DNA from: Sulfurospirillum diekertiae
GTDB taxonomy: Bacteria; Campylobacterota; Campylobacteria; Campylobacterales; Sulfurospirillaceae
NCBI RefSeq assembly: GCF_011769985.2
Contig: NZ_CP039734.2
Coordinates: 1,984,001-2,048,000, forward strand
Length of the DNA: 64,000 nucleotides
Direction: 5' to 3'
Made by a program: the position numbers and the translations under genes. Shown piece after piece: positions 40,875 to 55,203 of this stretch. The notes beneath the pieces were generated by a model. The model was not told the DNA's origin, did not search any database, and saw nothing but the letters and a program-made list of their open reading frames with translations. Position 1 is the stretch's first letter. Each line of letters starts with the position of its first letter.

Positions 40875-40891
40875 GTGGCGGACAGAGAGGG
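40714..40891. repeat. Long direct repeat copy 1 ending in the tRNA-Ser 3' sequence
   Basis: About 178 bp that align with 42233-42420 with scattered differences and one roughly 10-bp gap, at an estimated 80-85% identity by eye. Shared blocks include TACGAATATTTC, TTATTCTTAGGGGTACGCAA and GAAAGTGCCTAAAATA. Confidence 0.75.
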
Positions 40892-40898
40892 ATTTGAA
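40875..40898. repeat. attL: displaced 3' end of tRNA-Ser
   Basis: 24 bp identical to 55180-55203, beginning GTGGCGGACAG and ending GATTTGAA, after which the sequences diverge (AAAACC here, CCCTCGG in the tRNA). Confidence 0.85.
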
Positions 40899-40914
40899 AA
40901 AACCTTACCCTTTT

Positions 40915-41250
40915 TTAGTGCATTTCAATCTTTATATTTTCGTTGTTTGATAGGTTTTTTTCTTTTTCTTTCTTAACCTCTGTAAATTTTTTTGGTTCGA
41001 TTTCCTTCATTTTTACTGTTGTTTTTATTGGTTCTTTTTTAATTTCATTTGGTGTTTGATAGAGTGAAAAACCTATTATAAAAATGATTATATAAATTAC
41101 TGTATTGATTGGTCTTATTTTAATTTTTGTTACATAACTTAGTATGCTTAAAATTGCGATTGCTATTAAAAATATAAGAATTAATTCTTCAATACCTTTT
41201 GAATTTGATATTGATTGAAACATGCCTTGTGTGATTGTTTTTTCATTCAT
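40915..41250 (-). CDS. Hypothetical membrane protein of the extra cassette
   Basis: 111 residues with two TM helices (about 20-40, ELILIFLIAIAILSILSYV; and about 48-63, TVIYIIIFIIGFSLY) and a Lys/Glu-rich tail. I do not recognise a family. It is last of three minus-strand genes between the first and second att copies and overlaps the upstream gene by 4 nt. Its low GC and Lys/Ile-rich composition resemble the element, not the host genes. Confidence 0.7.
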   Translation of the reverse strand: MNEKTITQGMFQSISNSKGIEELILIFLIAIAILSILSYVTKIKIRPINTVIYIIIFIIGFSLYQTPNEIKKEPIKTTVKMKEIEPKKFTEVKKEKEKNLSNNENIKIEMH

Positions 41251-41729
41251 TTATAATATCCTATACTCGTTGATGTCCCAGGGTGTATTTCTTCTTCCTC
41301 TTGTATTTTTTGAGTAGGTATTTGTTTTTGAGGAGTTTGTTGAGACATAAGATTAATGGTAGTTTCTTGTTTTGAGGGTTCTATTTTTGGTGGTGTAATG
41401 ATAGGTTTATTTGAAATGATTTCTATATTTTTTGTCATTACTTGTTGAGAGGTTTCTTCTATTTTTTGTGTTTGGATTGGCTTTTGTAGGTCTGTAGTTG
41501 TTGTTTCTTCTTTTTTGAGTCTATCGTTAAATGCTTCATTGGGTTTTTTGTGAATACCGCTTAAATTCATTACAATAATATATCCTATCAAAAGAATAAT
41601 TGGAATCAATGAAAGACGAGGCAATTTTTTATTATTCTTGTTTGTTAAAAACTTTCCATTAGCTTTTTCTTGGTATTTTTGTTTTCGATACTTTTCTATT
41701 AAATCTAATGAATCATCATCATAAAACAC
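41247..41729 (-). CDS. Hypothetical single-pass protein with a Pro/Gln/Thr-rich periplasmic region
   Basis: 160 residues. A charged N-terminal segment (about 1-35), one TM helix (about 38-57, SLIPIILLIGYIIVMNLSG), then about 100 residues rich in Lys, Thr, Pro, Gln and Ile without Cys. The topology resembles TonB or VirB10 N-terminal regions that span the periplasm, but no family motif is present. It is translation-coupled with the 111-residue protein. Confidence 0.7.
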   Translation of the reverse strand: MFYDDDSLDLIEKYRKQKYQEKANGKFLTNKNNKKLPRLSLIPIILLIGYIIVMNLSGIHKKPNEAFNDRLKKEETTTTDLQKPIQTQKIEETSQQVMTKNIEIISNKPIITPPKIEPSKQETTINLMSQQTPQKQIPTQKIQEEEEIHPGTSTSIGYYK

Positions 41730-41750
41730 TTTTTAGCACCTTGTTGTATT

Positions 41751-42065
41751 TTATTTGATAATTTTATATTCCATTGAGCCTATGTAATAATAAGGTTTTT
41801 TGTCATGATCATCATATCTTGTCTTTAGCATAGAAAAATTTTGTCCTGCGCTTAGTTGTAAGTCATTAATACTTTTACTTTGTCCATCTAATGAAGCACT
41901 AAGATGTTTTATTAAAACTGTATCTGCAGACATGTTTGTAATAATGATTTCTCCGCTTAATGGTCCTTTATAAAAATACGCACATACTTTTTGATCTGGT
42001 AAATCACATGGTGGAATTGCATACATACTTGTGAGTAATCCAACAAGGATAAGTATTTTTTTCAT
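41751..42065 (-). CDS. Small secreted hypothetical protein
   Basis: 104 residues with a signal peptide (ILVGLLTSMYAIPP). The mature part has two Cys near its start (PCDLPDQKVC, possible disulfide) and a beta-rich pattern (GEIIITNMSADTVLIKHLSASLDG). It is first of the three-gene cassette, and the last gene lies beside att. No family recognised. Confidence 0.7.
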   Translation of the reverse strand: MKKILILVGLLTSMYAIPPCDLPDQKVCAYFYKGPLSGEIIITNMSADTVLIKHLSASLDGQSKSINDLQLSAGQNFSMLKTRYDDHDKKPYYYIGSMEYKIIK

Positions 42066-42232
42066 TCTAGCCCCCTAGTTTGTTTGTGTAATATTAATAT
42101 TATTTAGCTTTGAGTCATTTATTTTTTCTATATATTTTGTTCTTGTGCCAATTGAATTATAGCTTTTATTTTTCTTTATATTGGTGTGTATGAACATACT
42201 ACTTCTTCAATAAGTGTTTCTATGTTGAATTA

Positions 42233-42420
42233 GCACAGTATTTGGGACACTCTAGCACTAAAATGATCTATGATGTTTATGTAAGTTATCTTCAAGGTCA
42301 CTTTATGACCTTCAATACGAATATTTCAATTTATTCTTAGGGGTACGCAAGGGATTTCCAGGTTTTTAAAAAGTGCTTTGAAAGTGCCTAAAATAGGGGC
42401 TTGGTGGCGGACAGAGAGGG
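42233..42420. repeat. Long direct repeat copy 2
   Basis: Matches 40714-40891 as described there; the last 17 bases (42404-42420, GTGGCGGACAGAGAGGG) equal the att core, after which it reads AGCATCGG. Confidence 0.75.
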
Positions 42421-42494
42421 AGCATCGGACAAACTCTCTCAAAGTGCCTAAAATACGAGATTCCAAAGCCTCCACTGATTTAGCGGATAGCGAT

Positions 42495-42558: not shown

Positions 42559-44328
42559 TTAATCTAACTTTATTTGATACCTATTTTTTAGAACATCAAT
42601 ATCATCATTATTAAAGAATGGTAGCTCTTTTAGTAGAACTTTTTGTGTGATTTCTGGTGGTAAACGATATTCAAATTGTAGCTGTGAAGTAGGGTGTTCA
42701 CCTATGCTACAAAAGCACTGCAAAGGCTTTAAAGCGTTAAATTCAGAAGGTAGCACGATTCTTTTTAGCTTCTCTTCTTCCGTTTCGCTCACTCTCTCTG
42801 AATTGTCACCTCTCGAAATTGATTCACGCATTCTCTCGATTTCTTGTTCATTAAAGTAGCGTGAAAGCCATTCTGCGCCATCTGGTTCATTATATTGAAA
42901 GATGAACTTGTTAGATAAGTGCTGAAATAGCTCTCTCATTCCTTCTTTCTTAATTAGTTGCTCTAATTGTGGCAACGATTGAGTGGCTACTATTGCGGAA
43001 TAACCAAAAGAACGGCTCTCAGCTAGAAAATTACCTAGCTCGCTTATTAGTTGTTTTCCGAGCTCATGGTTTCCATCACTGCCCAAGCTTTGAATTTCAT
43101 CAAACATGAGAAAAATACGTCTATTGGAAGGCTGTGAAAGGCTTGTTCCACGTTTAAAAATTAGATTAATGAATAGTGAAAAATAGGTGGTATATGCACC
43201 TGCCATCTCTTTTGTGTTCACTATGAAAAGCCGTCTGTCGGGGTTTTCATCAATGGTTTTGAAGAATGTTTTAATCGAAAAATTGCCTTCTGTGAAATAG
43301 AATTCTCTCTTGCTTAAACCTCGGAACACTTTGTTAAGTGTTGCCATTACGCTATTCCCTTGGTTATCAAGCCCACCAGCTCCGACGGTAAGGGCATTTG
43401 CTACGTTATTATGTAAGCCGTATTTGATTACCGTTTTATCTTTTACAAGAGTATTTCTAAGGGTTAAACCGTCTCCATTTGCTTGTATAAAATCGATTAA
43501 GAATTTGTTATTAGCATTACTTGCCATTCCACAAACAGCGACCAGAACGGCTTTTGTAACGGCTTGTGCTTGCTCTTGGAAGTGTGCATTCTTACTGTCT
43601 GAATCGGTAGGACACAAGCTTTTAGCGAAAAATTCGACCATTGATTCGTTTATAGTGCCGTTATCTTCGAGTAAATCATCGAAGATGTTCCATTTGATAC
43701 AGTTCTTATCAAGAGGATTGAATAGAAAATCTTTTCCACTCGTTCTGCGATATAGACGTGTCGTGAAATCTGGTTTCCTGTCATAAATTATGAATGTATA
43801 GCCGTAATCTGAAACGCCTTTGTCGATTTGAACACCATATTTATCGAAGTTACCAAACAAGAGATTAAAGATACCCTGCGTTTTTCCTGAGCCTGCTTTA
43901 CCTAAAAATAGAAAGTTACGTGGTATCTCTTTGAAAGGTATCGGCATTCTCTCATGTGCTAGATGAACGAGTGGTGCATCTTTCTTTATTTGCATATCTT
44001 TTGTGATTATCTTTTTAAGTTTATCAGCATCTATACGAACAGCACCCCTTTTTACTGTCTCTTTTTTTATCTTATTGTGGAAGAAGCAAACGAGAGCAAA
44101 GGAAAGAGTAAAATACGTTAAAAAGGCACTTAGATTGTAAAGTAAGAAGCCTTTTATACTGTCCTGCCACAGCTCATCTGTAAGAGGTGGAAGTTCATCT
44201 GGAAGAAGGCTTTCTATATGAAAAAATGGTAAAGGTAAGATGTCTCTAGTTGTTAGAAGCCCAAGAAAAAAGGCGACAAATCCCGCTATTATCGCCCTTT
44301 GCTTCATTTTCATAAAGAAGTTATCCAT
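42559..44328 (-). CDS. VirD4/TraD-type coupling protein (T4CP)
   Basis: 589 residues. Two N-terminal TM helices (about 12-28 and 60-83) are followed by a soluble ATPase. Walker A FLGKAGSGKTQGI near 141-153 and Walker B RRIFLMFDEIQSLG near 400 are intact. SFGYSAIVATQSLPQLEQL is typical of TraD/TrwB/VirD4. It pumps relaxase-bound DNA into a type IV channel. The channel is not encoded here, so a helper is needed. The start overlaps the preceding stop by 1 nt (TAATG). Confidence 0.88.
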   Translation of the reverse strand: MDNFFMKMKQRAIIAGFVAFFLGLLTTRDILPLPFFHIESLLPDELPPLTDELWQDSIKGFLLYNLSAFLTYFTLSFALVCFFHNKIKKETVKRGAVRIDADKLKKIITKDMQIKKDAPLVHLAHERMPIPFKEIPRNFLFLGKAGSGKTQGIFNLLFGNFDKYGVQIDKGVSDYGYTFIIYDRKPDFTTRLYRRTSGKDFLFNPLDKNCIKWNIFDDLLEDNGTINESMVEFFAKSLCPTDSDSKNAHFQEQAQAVTKAVLVAVCGMASNANNKFLIDFIQANGDGLTLRNTLVKDKTVIKYGLHNNVANALTVGAGGLDNQGNSVMATLNKVFRGLSKREFYFTEGNFSIKTFFKTIDENPDRRLFIVNTKEMAGAYTTYFSLFINLIFKRGTSLSQPSNRRIFLMFDEIQSLGSDGNHELGKQLISELGNFLAESRSFGYSAIVATQSLPQLEQLIKKEGMRELFQHLSNKFIFQYNEPDGAEWLSRYFNEQEIERMRESISRGDNSERVSETEEEKLKRIVLPSEFNALKPLQCFCSIGEHPTSQLQFEYRLPPEITQKVLLKELPFFNNDDIDVLKNRYQIKLD

Positions 44329-44651: not shown

Positions 44652-44806
44652 TAATTCACCCCTTTTTTATCTGCTTTCTCGATTAATACATCGATTTTTT
44701 TATTCATTTCTACTGTTTGCACAAGTTGGGTAAACATTAAAATAGCAAAGCCATAAATCATTAAAATTAGAATTATGTTAGTTTTTTGAATTTCTTTTTC
44801 TAGCAT
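44651..44806 (-). CDS. 51-residue membrane microprotein of the mobilization operon
   Basis: 51 residues starting MLEKEIQKTN, with one TM helix (about 11-29, IILILMIYGFAILMFTQLV) and a charged tail ending KKGVN. AAGGAGG precedes the ATG by 6 nt. The gene overlaps the relaxase stop by 7 nt and the next start by 1 nt, so it fits exactly into the coupled operon, which supports its being real. No family recognised. Confidence 0.75.
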   Translation of the reverse strand: MLEKEIQKTNIILILMIYGFAILMFTQLVQTVEMNKKIDVLIEKADKKGVN

Positions 44807-45558
44807 TCTAAACCTCCTTGAATTGCTCTTTCATCGGCTTTTTCGATGTTCTTTTCAATCTCTTTTTCTTGAAAGATGGATTCTGTTTTATCACCTACAA
44901 TCTCTTTTAATAGGTGCATTTGCTCTTTGTTCATCATTACATCTCTGCCGTCCTCACTGTGAATAAAAACGTGTGCGTGTGGTATTTCATGGTCTGTGTG
45001 GACAGCAAATTTGTATCCAAAATCTTTATCTGTCAAATCTTTGAATGTATCCATAGAATATTTAATTAATCCTACATATTCATCTCGAGAGAGAATTTGA
45101 CCTGTCGAAATAACATTTCGTGAAGAAGCATTTAATCCGTCATTTTGAAGCTCTTTTCTAAAATCTTCAAACTCTTCTCTCGTCATTCTTTCCCCTGATT
45201 CATCATAAATATTTGATAAATCAGTATCGTTTTTAATATCATCATTGCCATGATTATTCATATAATTGAGGCTAGCTGAACCGTGAGAACCGATTGATTT
45301 TTTTGATGAGCGTTTGCCGTCTGCATTCATCTTACCAGCTATTTCATAATTTCTTTTTAAGAAAATTGACATTCCCCCCACTACTACACCGCCTTTTTGA
45401 GATGGTGTTCTTATACCTTGAATACCAACATTTAAAGATTCTTTGTGGCTTTTTATTGAGATTCTTTTCTCTTCTGTTCTTGAAAATACAGCTTGTAATT
45501 TTTCAAATCTTGCCTCTTTTGGTTCTTCCAATTCTTTAATTCGTTTAATAAATTTCAT
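44800..45558 (-). CDS. Relaxase (DNA-nicking mobilization protein)
   Basis: 252 residues. The histidine triad of MOB relaxases is clear: HTDHEIPHAHVFIHS with His at about 187, 190, 194 and 196. A candidate catalytic Tyr sits in SLNYMNNHG near 99; the N-terminal half is otherwise poorly matched. It is short for a relaxase and lacks a helicase or primase domain. It nicks oriT and stays bound to the DNA end. It is TAATG-coupled to the RHH gene, followed by the microprotein, the two-TM protein and the T4CP. Confidence 0.82.
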   Translation of the reverse strand: MKFIKRIKELEEPKEARFEKLQAVFSRTEEKRISIKSHKESLNVGIQGIRTPSQKGGVVVGGMSIFLKRNYEIAGKMNADGKRSSKKSIGSHGSASLNYMNNHGNDDIKNDTDLSNIYDESGERMTREEFEDFRKELQNDGLNASSRNVISTGQILSRDEYVGLIKYSMDTFKDLTDKDFGYKFAVHTDHEIPHAHVFIHSEDGRDVMMNKEQMHLLKEIVGDKTESIFQEKEIEKNIEKADERAIQGGLEC

Positions 45559-45950
45559 TAATTCACCTCGTCTTTGATAGTTGTTTTTAATGCTTCAAGA
45601 GCTTTGTTGATTCCTAGATTTTCATCTTGATTAATTTGCTCTTGATTAAAATTTGAAACACCTTTGTATAATTGGTAAGTGTGAGAATAAACCCTCCCGA
45701 GAAATTTAAAAAGGTTAATATTAATACCTGCAATTCTATTGCCTTGATTCCTGATTTCTTCTCGAGTAGCTTTCATTTCATCTTTGAAAAGCTGTTTCAT
45801 ATCTTTTAAATTTTGAGTGTTTTCTAGACCTTTCAGAACTAAAATTTCAATAGCTTCATTATAAGAAGCTTTTGAAACTGACCTGTAAGCCTCAATTAAT
45901 TTATGTAAATTTTCATCAATGCGTAAAGTTTTATGTATTTTGTTGTTCAT
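45558..45950 (-). CDS. Ribbon-helix-helix relaxosome accessory protein (MobC-like)
   Basis: 130 residues. The N-terminus KIHKTLRIDENLHKLIEAYRSVSKASYNEAIEILVLKGL is a ribbon-helix-helix pattern. The C-terminal half (IRNQGNRIAGININLFKFLGRVYSHTYQLYKG) recalls MobC-type accessory proteins that bind next to nic and open the strand. It is the first gene of the relaxase operon, directly downstream of the candidate oriT. Confidence 0.72.
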   Translation of the reverse strand: MNNKIHKTLRIDENLHKLIEAYRSVSKASYNEAIEILVLKGLENTQNLKDMKQLFKDEMKATREEIRNQGNRIAGININLFKFLGRVYSHTYQLYKGVSNFNQEQINQDENLGINKALEALKTTIKDEVN

Positions 45951-46119
45951 TCAATTTTCTCCACATTTGTAGCACACGAAAAGCCCTGAATTTAGGCGTT
46001 TTAGTGTAGTTGTGAGCACAATTTGTGCCACATATTTTGAATAAGAACACATTTGTGCTCTTAAAAAAGCCCTGAAAAGCGATGTTCCTGCAAGGTTTGT
46101 GGCACATTTGTGCCACATC
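45951..46119. other. Candidate oriT with a TGTGGCACA inverted repeat
   Basis: Non-coding region before the accessory/relaxase operon. TGTGGCACA (46098-46106) and TGTGCCACA (46109-46117) form a perfect 9-bp inverted repeat with a 2-bp spacer. Two further ATTTGTGC-like half-sites lie near 46020 and 46050. The core TGCCACA is the iteron word of 48.2-48.6 kb. Position and repeat suggest an oriT or operator; no nic site can be identified by eye. Confidence 0.5.
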
Positions 46120-46338
46120 TTATCTGTGCAATACGCTCTCTATTTCATCTTTTTTATACATAACATTTACTCGAATCACTAGTAAAACATATACTACGAC
46201 AGCGGGAAGAAATACATTGTCGCAAAACGCTTTTTCTGAAAGTTCAGAAGCCGTGAATAGTTTTGTGATAACGTAAATAACTCCCAAAAAAACGCTAACT
46301 GAAATTAATTTGTCGATAATTTTTAATATTTTTTCCAT
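46120..46338 (-). CDS. Small two-TM protein downstream of the replication gene
   Basis: 72 residues from ATG 46338, with AGGAGG 9 nt upstream; longer in-frame starts lie within the upstream gene. Two TM helices (about 9-24, KLISVSVFLGVIYVITKLF; and about 40-56, VFLPAVVVYVLLVIRV) with short charged ends. It follows the SF3 helicase gene by 10 nt. The stop lies beside the candidate oriT repeat. No family recognised. Confidence 0.7.
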   Translation of the reverse strand: MEKILKIIDKLISVSVFLGVIYVITKLFTASELSEKAFCDNVFLPAVVVYVLLVIRVNVMYKKDEIESVLHR

Positions 46339-46348
46339 TGTGTGCCTC

Positions 46349-47998
46349 CTATAATATGGCTTGTTTTGGATTGTTAAAATCAAATTCTGCATCTGAATTT
46401 GAAACCTTTTTTGCTTCTTCCTCATCTTGCAACTCATCAAGATATGCAAAAAATTCAATATAATCTTCTGGGTAAAATTCTTTAGTATTTTTATCAAGAA
46501 TGATAGTATTCACCGCTTTTTCTGTTACTCTTGCCACAGTTTCATTAAATGGAATGTACCCCATAAGCTCATTTAAAAATTTCTCTGTATCTTTGATTTC
46601 AGAAATAGGCTCACCTATTTTTCTGTATCTCTTACCTAGCGACGAAGTAGATTTTCCGAAGAAAGAATCTATGTCTTTATTTTTTTTGTTTTGTGTGGCT
46701 TTGTCATATCCACCTAACAAAGAAAGAGCAAAATCAAAATCGAAAGTGAACATCTTTCCACTGATAAAGCCAAAGAGAAAAGATTTTAAAGATTTCTCAA
46801 AATCATCACCTCTATAATCCGCTTTTAATTCCACAAATTGAGCATAAAGAGATTCCACAGTTTTGCTGTTTCTATTCACTTTTAGATCATTCGCTAGTGT
46901 TTTCAATGAAGATACAGAAGCGTTTGAAATAACTTTCTTTGCTTCTGTGCTAAAAGCTAAAGAAGCTTTGTTAAGGTCATAATCAAGTGAAAAGATAAAA
47001 TCAATAAAAGAATCAGCCTCACTTTTGATTCTATTGATAAAATCAATCATCGAAATTTGAAGTGTATTTTCAACAGCAGTTCTCAAAGGTACACTAGACG
47101 TTTCAATAACTACAAAACGTCTATCTGATGGCTCGATTACGAAAGGTACTTCATGGTTAGAGAACATCAATGAATTAAAATATGAAGGCTTCATTGTGCT
47201 GTTAACGCCTTTTGCTTCAATTTGAAGCATCGATTCGCTTATATAGCCTTTCAAAAGGTCGCTGGTAGTATTTGATTCGTTGAAATTACCTTTAATCTCA
47301 TTCCATGCTACAAATAAAGTATGATCTAAGTATGAATTGAATTTACCTTGCAATCTTGCATTATCAACTGTGATAGCGTGTTTTTCGCCTAGTGCTTTTA
47401 CTATAAAATTGTCATAGAATACGTTTTTACCTGCACCTTGAATGCCTTTCAAGATGTAACACACACCTAATTTTTTTCTTTCGTTAAAACAAGCTGATAG
47501 CCAGTTCAAAAAATGCAAGATATGTTCATCATTTGAATTGAAGAGGCTTTGCAACAAGAAATAAGTGTTCGGGTAGCTTTTCACTGCTTCCATGCTTAAT
47601 TTTCTCATTCTGTGGCTTCTCGGAGCATCTTTTACATATTGAGTAGCTGAGAACGTATTAAATTTGTTGTCTTTGATTCTTTCCACTTCTTGCGGATTAA
47701 AAACAACATCAAGAACAGGCAATTTTTGAAGCATGGCACTTGTTACCTTGCTTTCTCCAAAATTTGAAGCAACAAAAGCGGTGGCTGTTTCTGTGTGTAT
47801 CAATGATATTTCATCACCTTTGAAAAAGTTGATGCCATTGATTGAGCGAAAAATAAAACTAGAATCTGGAAGAATACCTGTTCTGATAGAGTTCAAGATT
47901 TTATCTTGTTGTGCTAGTGAGCTAAGTTCTGAAAGAGCTTCGTCTAATTGTTGCGGGTTGAGTTTTCCTAACTCATGGGTTAAGTGAGAATATTTCAT
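46349..47998 (-). CDS. SF3-type primase-helicase (plasmid/phage replication initiator)
   Basis: 549 residues. A C-terminal helicase of the D5/DUF5906 class has Walker A YILKGIQGAGKNVFYD near 181-196 (GxGKN is typical of these phage/plasmid enzymes), Walker B TLFVAWNEIKG near 225 and sensor motifs in PSYFNSLMFSNHEVPF and DRRFVVIE. The first ~150 residues are unassigned and may include a remnant primase or linker. It probably starts replication at the iterons 220 bp upstream of its ATG, so the element may replicate as a circle after excision. Confidence 0.8.
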   Translation of the reverse strand: MKYSHLTHELGKLNPQQLDEALSELSSLAQQDKILNSIRTGILPDSSFIFRSINGINFFKGDEISLIHTETATAFVASNFGESKVTSAMLQKLPVLDVVFNPQEVERIKDNKFNTFSATQYVKDAPRSHRMRKLSMEAVKSYPNTYFLLQSLFNSNDEHILHFLNWLSACFNERKKLGVCYILKGIQGAGKNVFYDNFIVKALGEKHAITVDNARLQGKFNSYLDHTLFVAWNEIKGNFNESNTTSDLLKGYISESMLQIEAKGVNSTMKPSYFNSLMFSNHEVPFVIEPSDRRFVVIETSSVPLRTAVENTLQISMIDFINRIKSEADSFIDFIFSLDYDLNKASLAFSTEAKKVISNASVSSLKTLANDLKVNRNSKTVESLYAQFVELKADYRGDDFEKSLKSFLFGFISGKMFTFDFDFALSLLGGYDKATQNKKNKDIDSFFGKSTSSLGKRYRKIGEPISEIKDTEKFLNELMGYIPFNETVARVTEKAVNTIILDKNTKEFYPEDYIEFFAYLDELQDEEEAKKVSNSDAEFDFNNPKQAIL

Positions 47999-48217
47999 TC
48001 TATTTTCCTATAAATTTGTAGAGCTTTTGAAAAGCTCGAGTGGTTGAATCCCTTTAGTGGGAAAAACTTTAAAACCTAAAACTTAGATGAGTTATAGGAT
48101 TGTATTTTGTATATTTAAGCAAAACGAAAGAATTATATCAGATTTTTTTAAGTTTGCGGTAATTTTCTGCTATTTTTAGTGTACTTTAAGTTTTATTATG
48201 ATAATAGCGGTGTTTTT

Positions 48218-48605
48218 TGCCACTTTTGCCACAGCACTTCAAGGTTTTGCCACAGCATTTTTCCATTTTGCCACAGCACTGCCACACGATTTGGCACTTT
48301 TGCCACAGCACTGCCACAGCACTTATATCTCTACTATTCCCTATTCTAGGGGTTTAGAGAGTAATATATATATATTTCATAGAGTTTTTTTAAAAATCGT
48401 AGTGGTAAATTGATTTTATTTTTTTACAAAGGAAGTGATAAAGCGTTTTTCTGTGGCAAAAAATACAAAAATGCTTCAAAAGCCCTAAAATAGGGCAAAC
48501 AAGAAAAAAAGTGCTGTGGCAGAGCTGTGGCAAACCCCCGTTTTGCTGTGGCAGTGCTGTGGCAAAAGTTCAAAAATTGCCACATCTGCCACACAACTTG
48601 CCACA
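48218..48605. repeat. Iteron array, word TGCCACA, candidate replication origin
   Basis: About 15 copies of TGCCACA (one TGCCACT). Seven run forward at 48218, 48227, 48248, 48269, 48280, 48301 and 48312; five inverted (TGTGGCA) at 48452, 48515, 48526, 48547 and 48558; three forward at 48578, 48587 and 48599. Many extend to TTTTGCCACAGCACT. Spacings of about 11 and 21 bp put sites on one helical face. A GCCCTAAAATAGGGC hairpin sits at 48482-48496. There is no convincing gene from 47999 to 48690. The position next to the SF3 gene fits a plasmid-type origin. Confidence 0.75.
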
Positions 48606-48690
48606 TCACTTGCTCTTTTTAACCACACTTTTAAAATAAAGGTGCGATTCGCTATATTTTTCTCATTATTTCTTTAAAAAAGGTGCTTCT

Positions 48691-49911: not shown

Positions 49912-50608
49912 TCCCTCAATTAATTTGTAATGTAATACAAATAGACACATTTTCAACTTTTTTTTGCAGAATTGCATTTTATGCTCATTATTTTTTCACA
50001 GCATCATATAACTATGATGTAAAAGGTGAAACAGATGTAGGAAGAAAAAGCCTTGATAATTTTTTAAAAAATATGAAGCTATCCTCTCAAATTTTGTCTA
50101 TCATATTTTGAAAAACATTTTCAAAATCCAAAGCTCTTCTCTTTCCACAATGAATTCAAAACTGAAATTAAAAATGAAGCTATCCTCTCTCATTCCTTCA
50201 TCAAAATTTCAAAAGCAATTTCAAAAAAAATCACAGATATAACTCTTAAATAAAATTAAAAATGAAATAAAAAAATCACTCACTCAATCATTACCTTACC
50301 TCCAATATTTCAAAAAAATTTTAATAAGACCAAACTGAAAAAATAAGGGGCACAATACGCCACCTACGGTGGATTTTAATTTCATGAAAAGCCCTTCAAA
50401 TCGATGTATACATCGATTTTCAGTTTTTAAAATTTGTATACAAATTGATTTTAAACCCCTTCAAAACATCGATGGTATCGATGTATACACTGTATTACAG
50501 CAAAGTTTTTCAAAACAGGCATATTTTAGGCTTTTTTCACTTTCTGTTTTTACTCACTTGTTCTCAAAAAACCTTTTAGGTTTTTCCTTCATTATGGAGG
50601 TAAAAATA
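49912..50608. other. Non-coding region with short repeats and GTATAC palindromes
   Basis: No intact gene. From about 49960 to 50111 a frame without start codon reads as a decayed gene end (NYDVKGETDVGRKSLDN, then a stop). ATGAAGCTATCCTCTC occurs twice (50073-50088, 50174-50189). Palindromes centred on GTATAC lie at 50398-50419 (22 bp, core ATCGATGTATACATCGAT), 50431-50446 (AATTTGTATACAAATT) and, imperfect, around 50483-50488. They precede the TraG-like gene and could be an operator. Confidence 0.6.
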
Positions 50609-53600
50609 ATGGAAAAATTCTTTAAAGTGTTTCTGGTTTTTTGGCTTTTTGTTGGTTCATTTGCGTATGCAGATGATTACCTTGTCACTGTGAATTCAGC
50701 TTACGAAGTTGATTATATGTTCACAATTTTAAATGCTATTTCGATGATCTTTCATGACGAAAGTTATCTAAAATTGCTTAAACTTCTCGTCCTTTTTGGT
50801 TCAGCTGTTGCCTTGTATCAATGGGCATTTTCTCCAAATATTGAAGGCGGGAAATCGTTCACGAAATATCATATCTTCATTACTTTATTTCTCGTTGCTG
50901 TGTTCTCAATGAGTAGCACAATTTTCGTAAAAACTGAAAATTATCCTATGTATTATGAAGATAATAGCACGTCACCGACCACAGGAATTGCAGTAAAAGT
51001 TCCTTCTGTTGTTGCTTTTTCTTATTCCTTTTTGTCTTCATTTGGTCAAGAAATGACAGGATTATTCACAACAGCTGTAAGCGATGTGGGAGGTGGTAGC
51101 TATTCGATTTCTCGTGGTGGATATGCTTCTTCAATTAAAGATGCTATCGATATTTTAAATCAGAACCCTTCAAATGCTTCACCTGTTTATGCAAACGATG
51201 TGGAAGCGTTCTTCTCTGATTGTATTTTTATCCCTTTTTCAAGTAAAGAATCTGACGGAGTTCGCCATATTTCAGCCATTTTCAAAACAAATAACATAAA
51301 GAATTTAATTTCAGGATGGTATGCGAGCGGTGAAACTGTGGGAGGAATAGATGCAGGTTCTTTTTCATCTGAGAGAAACGGTGCAATGTATTCATGTAGC
51401 TCACTATGGGATAAAATCGTAAATGAGGATATGACAGAATACACATCAAATTTTTCAACAGTGTTTAAAAATGCTGATGACAGGGATGTCGGATTTCTAA
51501 CTAAATCATATGGCTTACCAAAATCAAATTTCGATGAAATAGCTATTCAAAGCGGTTTAATTTATGCCGTAGCAAATAATAAATCATTGCCTATGGGCAT
51601 CACATACGCACAGGGAAAAGCTAGGGCGGAATTTAACCAAAATAACTTTTCAAATGGTTATTATATGGCATCTATGCTTCCCAAATTGCAGGGTTTTTTA
51701 AGGGCTTTAATTTATGCTCTTTTTCCTCTTGTTTTTGCTCTTGCCTTTTTACCACATAACATGGGTATTATCAAAAACTACCTAAAAACAGCGGTATGGA
51801 TTGAAATGTGGGGTGTCTCTAGTGCTATTCTAAACTTCTTTCTTATTAAATATGGTGAAGGCTTTATTTCTGGCGATGTCACTGTTAATTCTAGTGCCTT
51901 CATGTTGTCAGAAAGTGCCAATCTTGCTGGCATTGCAGGCTATTTATACCTTTCTGTGCCTGCCATTTCATACGGTATCTTATCTGGTTCACTAACTGCT
52001 CTTTCAAGTGTAGCTAGTGGGCTAACTAAAAATGCTCACTATGAAAGTGGCGCACTTGCCACAGATGCCCAAAAATTGGCATCAAAAGAGACAATGAACG
52101 AAGAAACTGGCGGTAATTTTTCATTTGCCGAAGCTTTACACTATAAAAATATGCAAGCGGGACAAAAAGAAGGAATGCAAACCGCAACAAACTTTTCTAA
52201 TAACTACAAAGATTTATTAAAATACGATGCTAGAAACCCCTACAACAGCATGAATGCGAAGATGGGAACAGCGGGTTCTTTTGATGAAATGATGAATCAA
52301 GAAGTAAAGAAAACAGGGCTAGATTTTGCCTCACTAATGGGTTCAAACAGCATTAATTCAAAAGAAACAGCCTTCAAAAGCTCGGTTGCTGACATTCGTT
52401 CCAAAGTAGCATCAGCGATGATGGAAGACAAATTCGGTGCTAATTTAACGGAAAATGCTTTCACCAGAGACAACGAGAGCCTCATTAAAAATATGACAAG
52501 ACAAAACGAAATCGGCACACAAGCGCAACGTGACAACTTCGCAAAACTTGAAGCGACACAAGATTACCTAACACAGGAACGCCCCAATGCCTATAGAAAC
52601 GACAGAAATGGTGATGGTGTGGTATCACGTCAAGAAATGATGTTCGAGGCAGGATTGAACGCACAGCAAGCTAAAATCGTCATAGCGGATAAATTCGCCA
52701 ATCAAGAGGCTCTAAAAGCAAGTGCAGAAGCTAATAAAAACAGTTCTAATGATAGCATTAGAAACGCACAGAATGGCTTCTCTTCAATGTTCGGAGATGT
52801 TGCGGGTGCAAGTGCCACAGGACGTAAATTCTCGCAATTTAGCGACAATAACAACATGAGAAAAGATGTCTCACAAATTGAAACACAGCTTCACAACGGT
52901 ATTTCAAGTGAAACGGTGGGTGCTTTTGGTGGTATCTCAAAAGTGGGCGACATCAAACATCAACAAAGCGAAAGCGAAACACTAGGTAACATCGTTCCTC
53001 AACTTTTACAAAATGAAAGTGAGATTGCTGATAAATTCCGTTCAAAATACGGTGAAAATGCTGATTCAGCGATGTTCTCAGCGTATGGAACACGTGGTAT
53101 CTTTAAATCAGATTTAACGCAATCATTATTAAATAAGGAGATTTCTGGCATTCAAAATGGTGCATCAGCACAGTTGCAAAGTGGGTTAAATTCATACTTA
53201 CAAGCTCACACAAGCGGTTCACCACTCGAATCTGGCTTAATGAAGACGTATTCAGCTCTTCACGCTAATTATGAAAAGGCGATGAAAGCAGGCGATACAA
53301 GACAAATTCAAGCGATTGAAAGTGCGATGAATTCATCGACAATGCAACCTTTGAAAGAGTTGGCAGGACAATATTTAAACAGCTCAGAAGCTCATAATAT
53401 CGCTTCAAACGCTTCTTCTGCGGTAAATGGCGTATATGCTAAATATGAGAATATGGGTGTAATCAAAAGAGATGGCGGAAGTGTTTCATACCTCGACACT
53501 CAAAAAGCGATAGAAAGCGCATCTGGTGCGGATAAAGTGGCATTAACAACACGTTTAAAAAGTGGCTTAGATGGTCTTTCAGTATCCACAAACAGCATCG

Positions 53601-53815
53601 ATGGAAGAGAAACAAAAGTTACTCAAAATCTTGCAGGTGAGAACATCACAAGCATCTCGAGAGCATCACACGAATTCAGCAACAGTGGAAATTATAACAA
53701 TGATATTTTATATCATGCAGGAAATCACATCGACGGTGAAACACTAGCCACTGGTGTTTCCACAGCTTCCACACTTTTAAAAGTTGGCGGATTAACTAAA
53801 TTTCTTGTCAAGTAA
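50609..53815 (+). CDS. TraG-N-domain conjugal transfer protein (F-type TraG-like)
   Basis: 1068 residues from ATG 50609, with TGGAGG 9 nt upstream. A signal-like N-terminus (VFLVFWLFVGSFAYADD) and TM helices at about 35-105 are followed by a long outer domain. More TM helices lie at about 360-500 (FLRALIYALFPLVFALAFLP and GIAGYLYLSVPAISYGIL). The last ~550 residues are a soluble Ser/Asn/Ala-rich coiled region. TraG of F stabilises mating pairs and excludes like donors. The rest of an F-type apparatus is absent. It is the largest gene of the element and ends in a strong terminator. Confidence 0.7.
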   Translation: MEKFFKVFLVFWLFVGSFAYADDYLVTVNSAYEVDYMFTILNAISMIFHDESYLKLLKLLVLFGSAVALYQWAFSPNIEGGKSFTKYHIFITLFLVAVFSMSSTIFVKTENYPMYYEDNSTSPTTGIAVKVPSVVAFSYSFLSSFGQEMTGLFTTAVSDVGGGSYSISRGGYASSIKDAIDILNQNPSNASPVYANDVEAFFSDCIFIPFSSKESDGVRHISAIFKTNNIKNLISGWYASGETVGGIDAGSFSSERNGAMYSCSSLWDKIVNEDMTEYTSNFSTVFKNADDRDVGFLTKSYGLPKSNFDEIAIQSGLIYAVANNKSLPMGITYAQGKARAEFNQNNFSNGYYMASMLPKLQGFLRALIYALFPLVFALAFLPHNMGIIKNYLKTAVWIEMWGVSSAILNFFLIKYGEGFISGDVTVNSSAFMLSESANLAGIAGYLYLSVPAISYGILSGSLTALSSVASGLTKNAHYESGALATDAQKLASKETMNEETGGNFSFAEALHYKNMQAGQKEGMQTATNFSNNYKDLLKYDARNPYNSMNAKMGTAGSFDEMMNQEVKKTGLDFASLMGSNSINSKETAFKSSVADIRSKVASAMMEDKFGANLTENAFTRDNESLIKNMTRQNEIGTQAQRDNFAKLEATQDYLTQERPNAYRNDRNGDGVVSRQEMMFEAGLNAQQAKIVIADKFANQEALKASAEANKNSSNDSIRNAQNGFSSMFGDVAGASATGRKFSQFSDNNNMRKDVSQIETQLHNGISSETVGAFGGISKVGDIKHQQSESETLGNIVPQLLQNESEIADKFRSKYGENADSAMFSAYGTRGIFKSDLTQSLLNKEISGIQNGASAQLQSGLNSYLQAHTSGSPLESGLMKTYSALHANYEKAMKAGDTRQIQAIESAMNSSTMQPLKELAGQYLNSSEAHNIASNASSAVNGVYAKYENMGVIKRDGGSVSYLDTQKAIESASGADKVALTTRLKSGLDGLSVSTNSIDGRETKVTQNLAGENITSISRASHEFSNSGNYNNDILYHAGNHIDGETLATGVSTASTLLKVGGLTKFLVK

Positions 53816-53877: not shown

Positions 53878-54987
53878 TTAGTAATAAGAAACGCTATCTA
53901 ATATCTCTTTTTTTAGTGATAATTGGTATCCTTTTGCATAGGTATCTACCGATAATTTTATTTTATCCTCTTTTTCGTGACCTACTATCTCTTGGATAAT
54001 AGGTAAATCTCTCGGATAATTTTTTAAACATCGGTTCATAAAAGTACCTCTAAATGTATGAAAAAATTTTCCTTCACCCTGCTTTACTACTCTGTAAAGT
54101 TGCCGTAATATTGCTTTTTGAGATGCGTTATCCGTTTTTTCTGGAAATAGAGGAAAATCAATTTCTAAAACCCTTTCTAAAATATCTTTATGGATAGGTA
54201 CTTGTCGCACTCCCGCATTCGTTTTCGATTTTTTAATATCAAAATAATAGATATTAGTTTCTTCATCTTGCTTTATATCATCATTTTTAATATTACAAAT
54301 CTCATTAACACGCATTCCTGTGCGGGTTGCAATAAGGAACGTATCTTTATAGCACTGTTCAAATTCTTCAAATTCAAGAATATTTCTGATTTCTTTATCT
54401 GTATAGTTTACGTGTGGTATTTCTGGGCTACTATCTGCAAGATTTTCAACGCCTTGAACATTGTTTTCTGGGTACAGCTTTCTATCGTTCCCCCACTTTA
54501 CAAACATTTTAACGTAAGCCATATGATTGTTTACGGTTTTATTTACAACTTGCGTAGAAAGATAATCCCTAAATCTCTCAAAATCCTCGATATTAAGGTT
54601 TTCTATACGTTCGTATTTGAAAAAATCTTTTAATTTTGTAAATGTCGCTTCATAGGCTTTATAAGTGCTTGCACTTACTTTTTCTAGTTTTTTCTTGCCT
54701 ACAATAAATTTAGTTTCGAGGTCATAAAATGTGAAGTTCTCTTTATTTGCAGGTCTTTCACCCTTTTTTATCTCACCTTCAATCTGTTCTTCTTTTTTAA
54801 AAATTTGTTGAACTCTTTTATAACTTTTTTCAGCTTCAAGTTCTTTCACTGTGTCTTTTAATTCAGATAAATATTCTCTAAATTCATCAGGAGTATCGTA
54901 TTCAAATACGAACTTATAATCACCATGTTGAAATGTAAACAAAAAATCCTCCTCGCTCATCATGTTTAATGTCTTTTTTCTTTTCAT
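53878..54987 (-). CDS. int: Tyrosine recombinase / integrase of the element
   Basis: 369 residues. The catalytic set is intact: Arg 226 in TRTGMRVNEI, Lys about 254 in KKSKTN, His-x-x-Arg in HTFRGTF (310-313), GH near 336-337, and the nucleophile Tyr near 350 in VDTYAKGY. An N-terminal SAM-like core-binding domain (about 80-190, LSTQVVNKTVNNHMAYVKMFVKWG) precedes it. It is transcribed away from the tRNA, about 190 bp from the tRNA 3' end, the usual layout of tRNA-targeting elements. Confidence 0.9.
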   Translation of the reverse strand: MKRKKTLNMMSEEDFLFTFQHGDYKFVFEYDTPDEFREYLSELKDTVKELEAEKSYKRVQQIFKKEEQIEGEIKKGERPANKENFTFYDLETKFIVGKKKLEKVSASTYKAYEATFTKLKDFFKYERIENLNIEDFERFRDYLSTQVVNKTVNNHMAYVKMFVKWGNDRKLYPENNVQGVENLADSSPEIPHVNYTDKEIRNILEFEEFEQCYKDTFLIATRTGMRVNEICNIKNDDIKQDEETNIYYFDIKKSKTNAGVRQVPIHKDILERVLEIDFPLFPEKTDNASQKAILRQLYRVVKQGEGKFFHTFRGTFMNRCLKNYPRDLPIIQEIVGHEKEDKIKLSVDTYAKGYQLSLKKEILDSVSYY

Positions 54988-55179: not shown

Positions 55180-55203
55180 GTGGCGGACAGAGAGGGATTT
55201 GAA
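55180..55203. repeat. attR: tRNA-Ser 3' end restored by the element
   Basis: 24 bp identical to 40875-40898; it forms the CCA end, acceptor arm and part of the T arm of the tRNA. Confidence 0.85.

Follow-up and report, generated by a model that had tools for sequence, protein, structure and literature searches.

A probable iteron-type replication origin beside a DUF5906 helicase gene on an integrated, conjugation-type element of Sulfurospirillum diekertiae

In the integrated PICI/SaPI elements EcCICFT073, SaPIbov1 and SaPI5, the replication origin lies next to the initiator gene and consists of two sets of iterons that flank an AT-rich region; the initiator is a self-loading D5/SF3-like helicase, and the iteron sequence varies between elements (PMC6092414, PMC7581432). 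Similarly, ORF904 of pRN1 is an SF3 replication protein whose gene adjoins an essential origin region (PMC4234260). For the polymerase of the tailed phage NrS-1, the template recognition sequence has been reported as TTTGGTTA (PMC8718748), and the NrS-1 genome has been described as containing two copies of an 8-nt sequence, a possible origin (PMC7102993); no mention of repeats was found in the text of the latter, a structural paper. At the level of the whole element, two reports describe SGI1 as integrated, conjugatively mobilized and replicating after excision (PMC7433901, PMC7826253).

Here, we analyzed a stretch of 64 kb from Sulfurospirillum diekertiae (the window, numbered from its first letter), in which the heptad TGCCACA is the top-ranked clustered 7-mer. 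The original prediction had placed about 15 copies in three blocks of alternating orientation, spaced by about one and two helical turns, within a non-coding region of 690 bp beside an SF3 helicase gene, and this description was borne out. The array comprises 14 exact copies within 48,227–48,605 and two one-mismatch copies, TGCCACT at 48,218 (+) and TGCCAAA at 48,290 (-), or 16 sites in total, compared with a maximum of three copies per 400 bp in 100 Markov shuffles of the window. The exact copies run forward six times, inverted five times and forward three times, with start-to-start spacings of 21, 21, 11, 21 and 11 bp, then 140 bp, then 63, 11, 21 and 11 bp, and finally 20, 9 and 12 bp; because these are mainly 11 and 21 bp, i.e., one and two helical turns, most of the sites lie on the same face of the helix. 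The extended iteron consensus is TTTTGCCACAGCACT, with the TT prefix absent from one third of the copies, and the two main blocks face each other across a gap. The non-coding region extends from 47,999 to 48,690 between divergent genes, with the SF3 helicase gene on the minus strand, its start codon 220 bp from the array, and two secreted/lipoprotein-like genes on the plus strand from 48,691 on.

46349–47998, minus strand: SF3 helicase gene (DUF5906), putative replication initiator
48218–48324, plus strand: iteron block 1, six exact TGCCACA copies and the one-mismatch copy at 48,218, with the inverted one-mismatch copy at 48,290
48325–48451, no strand: AT-rich gap between the facing blocks, 133 bp, its richest 35 bp reaching 91% A+T; candidate region for melting
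48452–48564, minus strand: iteron block 2, five exact TGCCACA copies, inverted
48482–48496, no strand: hairpin GCCCTAAAATAGGGC, not above chance
48578–48605, plus strand: iteron block 3, three exact TGCCACA copies, forward

The extended iteron pair TTTGCCACAGCACTGCCACA had no match in the genome contigs or viral contigs, and the array region had no plasmid match; the array therefore seems private to its element. Promoter-like sites in the array region were near the shuffle level, and a terminator was not found there. The hairpin was rejected as a conserved part of the array and carries little weight, because a stem as good as GCCCTAAAATAGGGC occurs in 26% of shuffles of the array region and a hairpin is no regular part of the related arrays, most of which have none at the threshold used.

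The SF3 protein matches DUF5906 in Pfam (E 1.6e-17), and its nearest solved relative by sequence is the C-terminal region of NrS-1 polymerase (E 6e-22); the PrimPol part of NrS-1 is missing from it in the alignment. Two AF2 models were obtained, with a mean pLDDT of 63 for the first and 74 for the second, which is reliable for the helicase core only. The closest fold match of the model was again the NrS-1 C-terminal region (Z 28.6), followed by the SaPI5 primase-helicase (Z 16.7), with about 10% identity in the aligned fold. Pattern scans with the SF3 protein over the genome contigs and viral contigs gave no confirmed relatives, and relatives were gathered by a whole-genome search instead.

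In common with the PICI/SaPI origins, the window has an adjacent SF3/D5-like helicase gene, iteron sets on both sides of an AT-rich region and an integrated element as carrier. Several differences should be noted: the PICI/SaPI origin lies immediately 3' of the initiator gene, whereas the window array lies 5'; and the window helicase is of the DUF5906/NrS-1-like type, on an element without a recognized primase gene. The PICI/SaPI initiator binds its iterons through a C-terminal domain; in the window protein, residues 369–549 fall outside the reliable part of the model. The whole element was rejected as a phage-inducible chromosomal island, as TraD-, TraG_N- and relaxase-like genes are found instead and no packaging gene was recognized among the element proteins scanned. 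Judged by its sequence, the array follows the published PICI/SaPI rep-ori plan on a conjugation-type element, which suggests that this origin layout may be wider in occurrence. The resemblance to pRN1 is limited to an SF3 protein gene with an adjoining origin region, which in pRN1 is a 100-nt stem-loop rather than a heptad array.

NrS-1 likewise offers a related helicase with an adjacent heptad array on a Campylobacterota mobile element; it differs in having the N-terminal PrimPol part, in the position of its array 3' of the gene, and in that this array is only a putative origin. Directly 3' of the NrS-1 polymerase gene (L142), we found 11 copies of GTTACACT (a GTTACAC array), and the single copy of TTTGGTTA in the 12.7-kb NrS-1 stretch lies within this array, on the minus strand. 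The array underlies an annotated hypothetical CDS, NRS1_29 (6,979–7,380 of L142), possibly a spurious ORF that overlies an origin.

From its gene content and boundaries, the carrier of the TGCCACA array appears to be an integrative and mobilizable element of 12.8–14.3 kb, integrated at tRNA-Ser. It is bounded by 24-bp direct repeats at 40,875 and 55,180, the latter at the 3' end of tRNA-Ser(GCT), and an integrase together with att direct repeats at a tRNA gene is present as for such elements.

40875–40898, no strand: outer att repeat matching GTGGCGGACAGAGAGGGATTTGAA, 24 bp
42404–42421, no strand: inner, third att-like copy, 18 bp
42559–44328, minus strand: gene for an F-type TraD-like coupling protein
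44800–45558, minus strand: probable relaxase gene, with an HxD...HxH motif recognized by eye
45558–45950, minus strand: gene for a small RHH-like protein, with a weak Arc-like match
50369–53815, plus strand: TraG_N gene (F-type mating-pair protein), true start probably near 50,600
53878–54987, minus strand: tyrosine recombinase (integrase) gene
55180–55203, no strand: att repeat GTGGCGGACAGAGAGGGATTTGAA, 3' end of tRNA-Ser(GCT)

The relaxase candidate had no library match. Given its third att-like copy at 42,404, the element may consist of a 12.8-kb core beside a 1.5-kb remnant; this strip (40875–42421), which contains three small ORFs, looks like the remnant of a second, tandem insertion. A complete conjugation apparatus of its own is absent, as expected for an integrative and mobilizable element, and the VirB4-/TraC-type families PF03135 and PF11130 had no match in the whole genome, so transfer of the element would need a helper. 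SGI1 has its own TraG-type protein, and the two are alike at the element level, both being integrated, of the mobilized type and equipped with such a protein. Just upstream of the likely TraG_N start, a cluster of palindromic words was observed at 50395–50490 (GTATACA six times, ATCGATGTATACATCGAT).

In a genome of the same species (G286, C1:2124057–2130335), the same flanks are separated by 6.3 kb of other DNA, indicating a variable insertion spot; an exact empty site was not found, this spot being occupied by a different insert with its own related integrase. Nearly all relatives lack the element as a whole and, with it, the array region. A second, plasmid-like contig of the studied genome (C2 of G000; L020, L021), 40 kb long, has several transposases as well as genes for ParA-, ParB- and Rep-like proteins; conjugation genes were not seen among the larger ORFs of this contig.

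A DUF5906 match was present in 40 of 397 genomes of the class, and 38 Campylobacterota DUF5906 loci, the window included, were surveyed for arrays, defined as at least five non-overlapping copies of one heptad no more than 700 bp 3' of the helicase gene. Such arrays were found at 17 of the 38 loci compared with 26 of 535 control windows drawn from these loci (Fisher p 3e-11), and arrays of at least eight copies at 11 of 37 loci (window excluded) compared with two of the 535 controls (p 1e-12), both p-values being optimistic because some loci are related and the control windows overlap. About ten distinct heptads were involved (TAAGACA, TGAGCCA, TGTCACA, GTGTAAC, GGGTGGA, GGGTGCA, TGGTGAA, TGGTAAA, ATGGACG and AAGGGCA), and in nearly all of the surveyed arrays an AT-rich gap separates blocks whose main orientations are mostly opposed. 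In position, the window stands apart, with its array 5' of the gene whereas those of its relatives are 3'; on the 3' side of its SF3 gene only three TGCCACA copies occur, beyond a small gene. GTG has been described as the primase motif of NrS-1 (PMC8718748), which prompted the idea of a GTG word shared across the arrays; this was rejected, as the TAAGACA and TGAGCCA heptads lack it. Separately, one genome (G319; L243, L250, L251) with no DUF5906 match has a cluster of four TGCCACA copies, near a parA-like gene and upstream of one that encodes a replication-like protein.

Four prophage-like loci (L182, L183, L184 and L185) constitute a two-by-two mosaic set. The N-terminal part is common to L182 and L184 (94% over residues 13–425) and to L183 and L185 (92%); by contrast, L182 and L183 share a C-terminal half (94–99% identical) and TAAGACA arrays, whereas L184 and L185 share the other C-terminal half (91–95% identical) and TGAGCCA arrays. 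Between the two C-terminal types, residues 426–600 and 860–980 are only 43–48% identical. Just past the array, the sequence again matches that of the N-terminal partner, so that both flanks are kept in the mosaics. Helicase half and array have thus been exchanged as one cassette within a shared backbone in two prophage pairs, and the identity of the heptad therefore follows the helicase half. These mosaics are as predicted by co-adaptation of reader and iterons, although adjacency alone could also keep the two together. They point to the C-terminal half as the probable iteron-reading part, within which residues 860–910 of the mosaic-locus helicases match the Pox_D5 domain and are a candidate reader.

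Based on these observations, namely the array itself, its layout, the association with DUF5906 genes and, in relatives, the inheritance of array type together with the helicase half, we propose that the TGCCACA array is probably a replication origin of the integrative and mobilizable element, driven by the SF3 helicase and active after excision. The element would excise from tRNA-Ser; the helicase would bind the TGCCACA iterons, probably via its C-terminal part, and load on the two facing blocks at either side of the AT-rich gap; and it may then melt this gap and drive plasmid-like replication. As no primase gene was recognized on the element, priming would depend on the host. Of the original prediction of an origin, the origin itself receives indirect but fairly strong support from the adjacent SF3 gene, the layout survey, the mosaics and the published PICI/SaPI origins, whereas the hairpin is not supported as a functional part. 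The role as an incompatibility site that it also mentioned, or a role in copy number, may be inferred for the iterons only by analogy with iteron replicons. Counting against the origin are the position of the array, 5' here and 3' in relatives, and the absence of a 3' array of at least five copies from 21 of the 38 DUF5906 loci. A rule by which the same heptad goes with a similar C-terminus also fails, and likewise counts against the origin, as NrS-1 and a second locus (L178) share their heptad but have dissimilar C-termini.

Further TGCCACA copies, which had escaped the original prediction, occur at 46,026, 46,098 and 46,111, upstream of the RHH and relaxase genes, in the stretch that separates the RHH gene from the small membrane-protein gene.

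46020–46120, no strand: three-copy TGCCACA site with a dyad; candidate oriT, or candidate operator for the RHH/relaxase operon

Two of these copies form a perfect 20-bp dyad, TGTGGCACATTTGTGCCACA (46,098–46,117). At the equivalent place, a syntenic sister element in another genome (G008) has, after a shared sequence GCACAGATAA, an imperfect palindrome of different letters. The site would fit an oriT or operator at a putative transfer-operon promoter. The sharing of one heptad between array and site is unlikely to be due to chance and suggests a single reader common to both. RHH proteins bind short repeats, so this reader might be the RHH-like protein (45,558–45,950), the array then being a partition or regulatory site for two divergent operons rather than an SF3 origin. 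The dyad upstream of the RHH gene and the position of the array between divergent genes favor this explanation, which we nevertheless regard as unlikely: the copies in the array are asymmetric and in phase with the helix (TTTTGCCACAGCACT), in contrast to the dyad form at the RHH gene, arrays of the same layout accompany DUF5906 genes in phages that were not selected for an RHH gene, and the mosaics tie the array type to the helicase half.

The sister element, which is interrupted by insertion sequences, raises a different explanation. Its SF3 protein is 35% identical to that of the window, and it has a Rep_3-like gene (below the Pfam cut-off) and, at the place of the TGCCACA array, a short GGTTAAC cluster; this points either to an exchange of the replication module or to different partners of the SF3 protein in the two elements. 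The array might accordingly be the origin of a Rep_3-type iteron replicon that has lost its initiator, now a relic or served by a Rep from the 40-kb plasmid-like contig, whose plasmid-type Rep-like gene adjoins ParA/ParB-like genes. An iteron plasmid replicon of this type needs a Rep_3 initiator gene, which only the sister element has in the form of its Rep_3-like gene; no Rep_3-type match was found among the larger proteins of the window element, nor was a remnant recognized. Moreover, the heptads are intact, regular and unlike the motif of the sister, and the plasmid-like contig has no TGCCACA cluster, which together make a Rep_3 relic quite improbable. It is mainly because of the Rep_3-like gene and the different cluster of the sister element that we rate the SF3-driven origin as probable and no higher. 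Clusters of GTTAACC were also observed in two different elements (L013, 8460–8560; L015, 16658–16770), one of them adjoining a Rep_3-like gene, and their TTTTTGGTTAACC contains the NrS-1 recognition word TTTGGTTA. Finally, host DnaA binding sites are hardly credible and were rejected: TTTGCCACA resembles the E. coli box TTATCCACA, but epsilonproteobacterial DnaA boxes have a strict TTCAC core (PMC5043019), which TGCCACA lacks; the TT prefix, too, is missing from one third of the copies.

With the SF3-driven origin as the preferred explanation, it is conceivable, albeit rather doubtful, that one and the same protein reads TGCCACA at the origin and at the RHH/relaxase promoter or oriT, which would couple copy number with conjugative mobilization; in that case, DUF5906 helicases with exchangeable cassettes, each a helicase half with its heptad array, would represent a replicon type general to the mobile elements of Campylobacterota, beyond the PICIs. 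A PICI/SaPI-like layout is now seen on an element of the conjugation type and, as a putative origin, next to the polymerase gene in the tailed phage NrS-1. In addition, the natural swaps of helicase half plus array lend themselves to testing which part of an SF3 initiator recognizes its origin.
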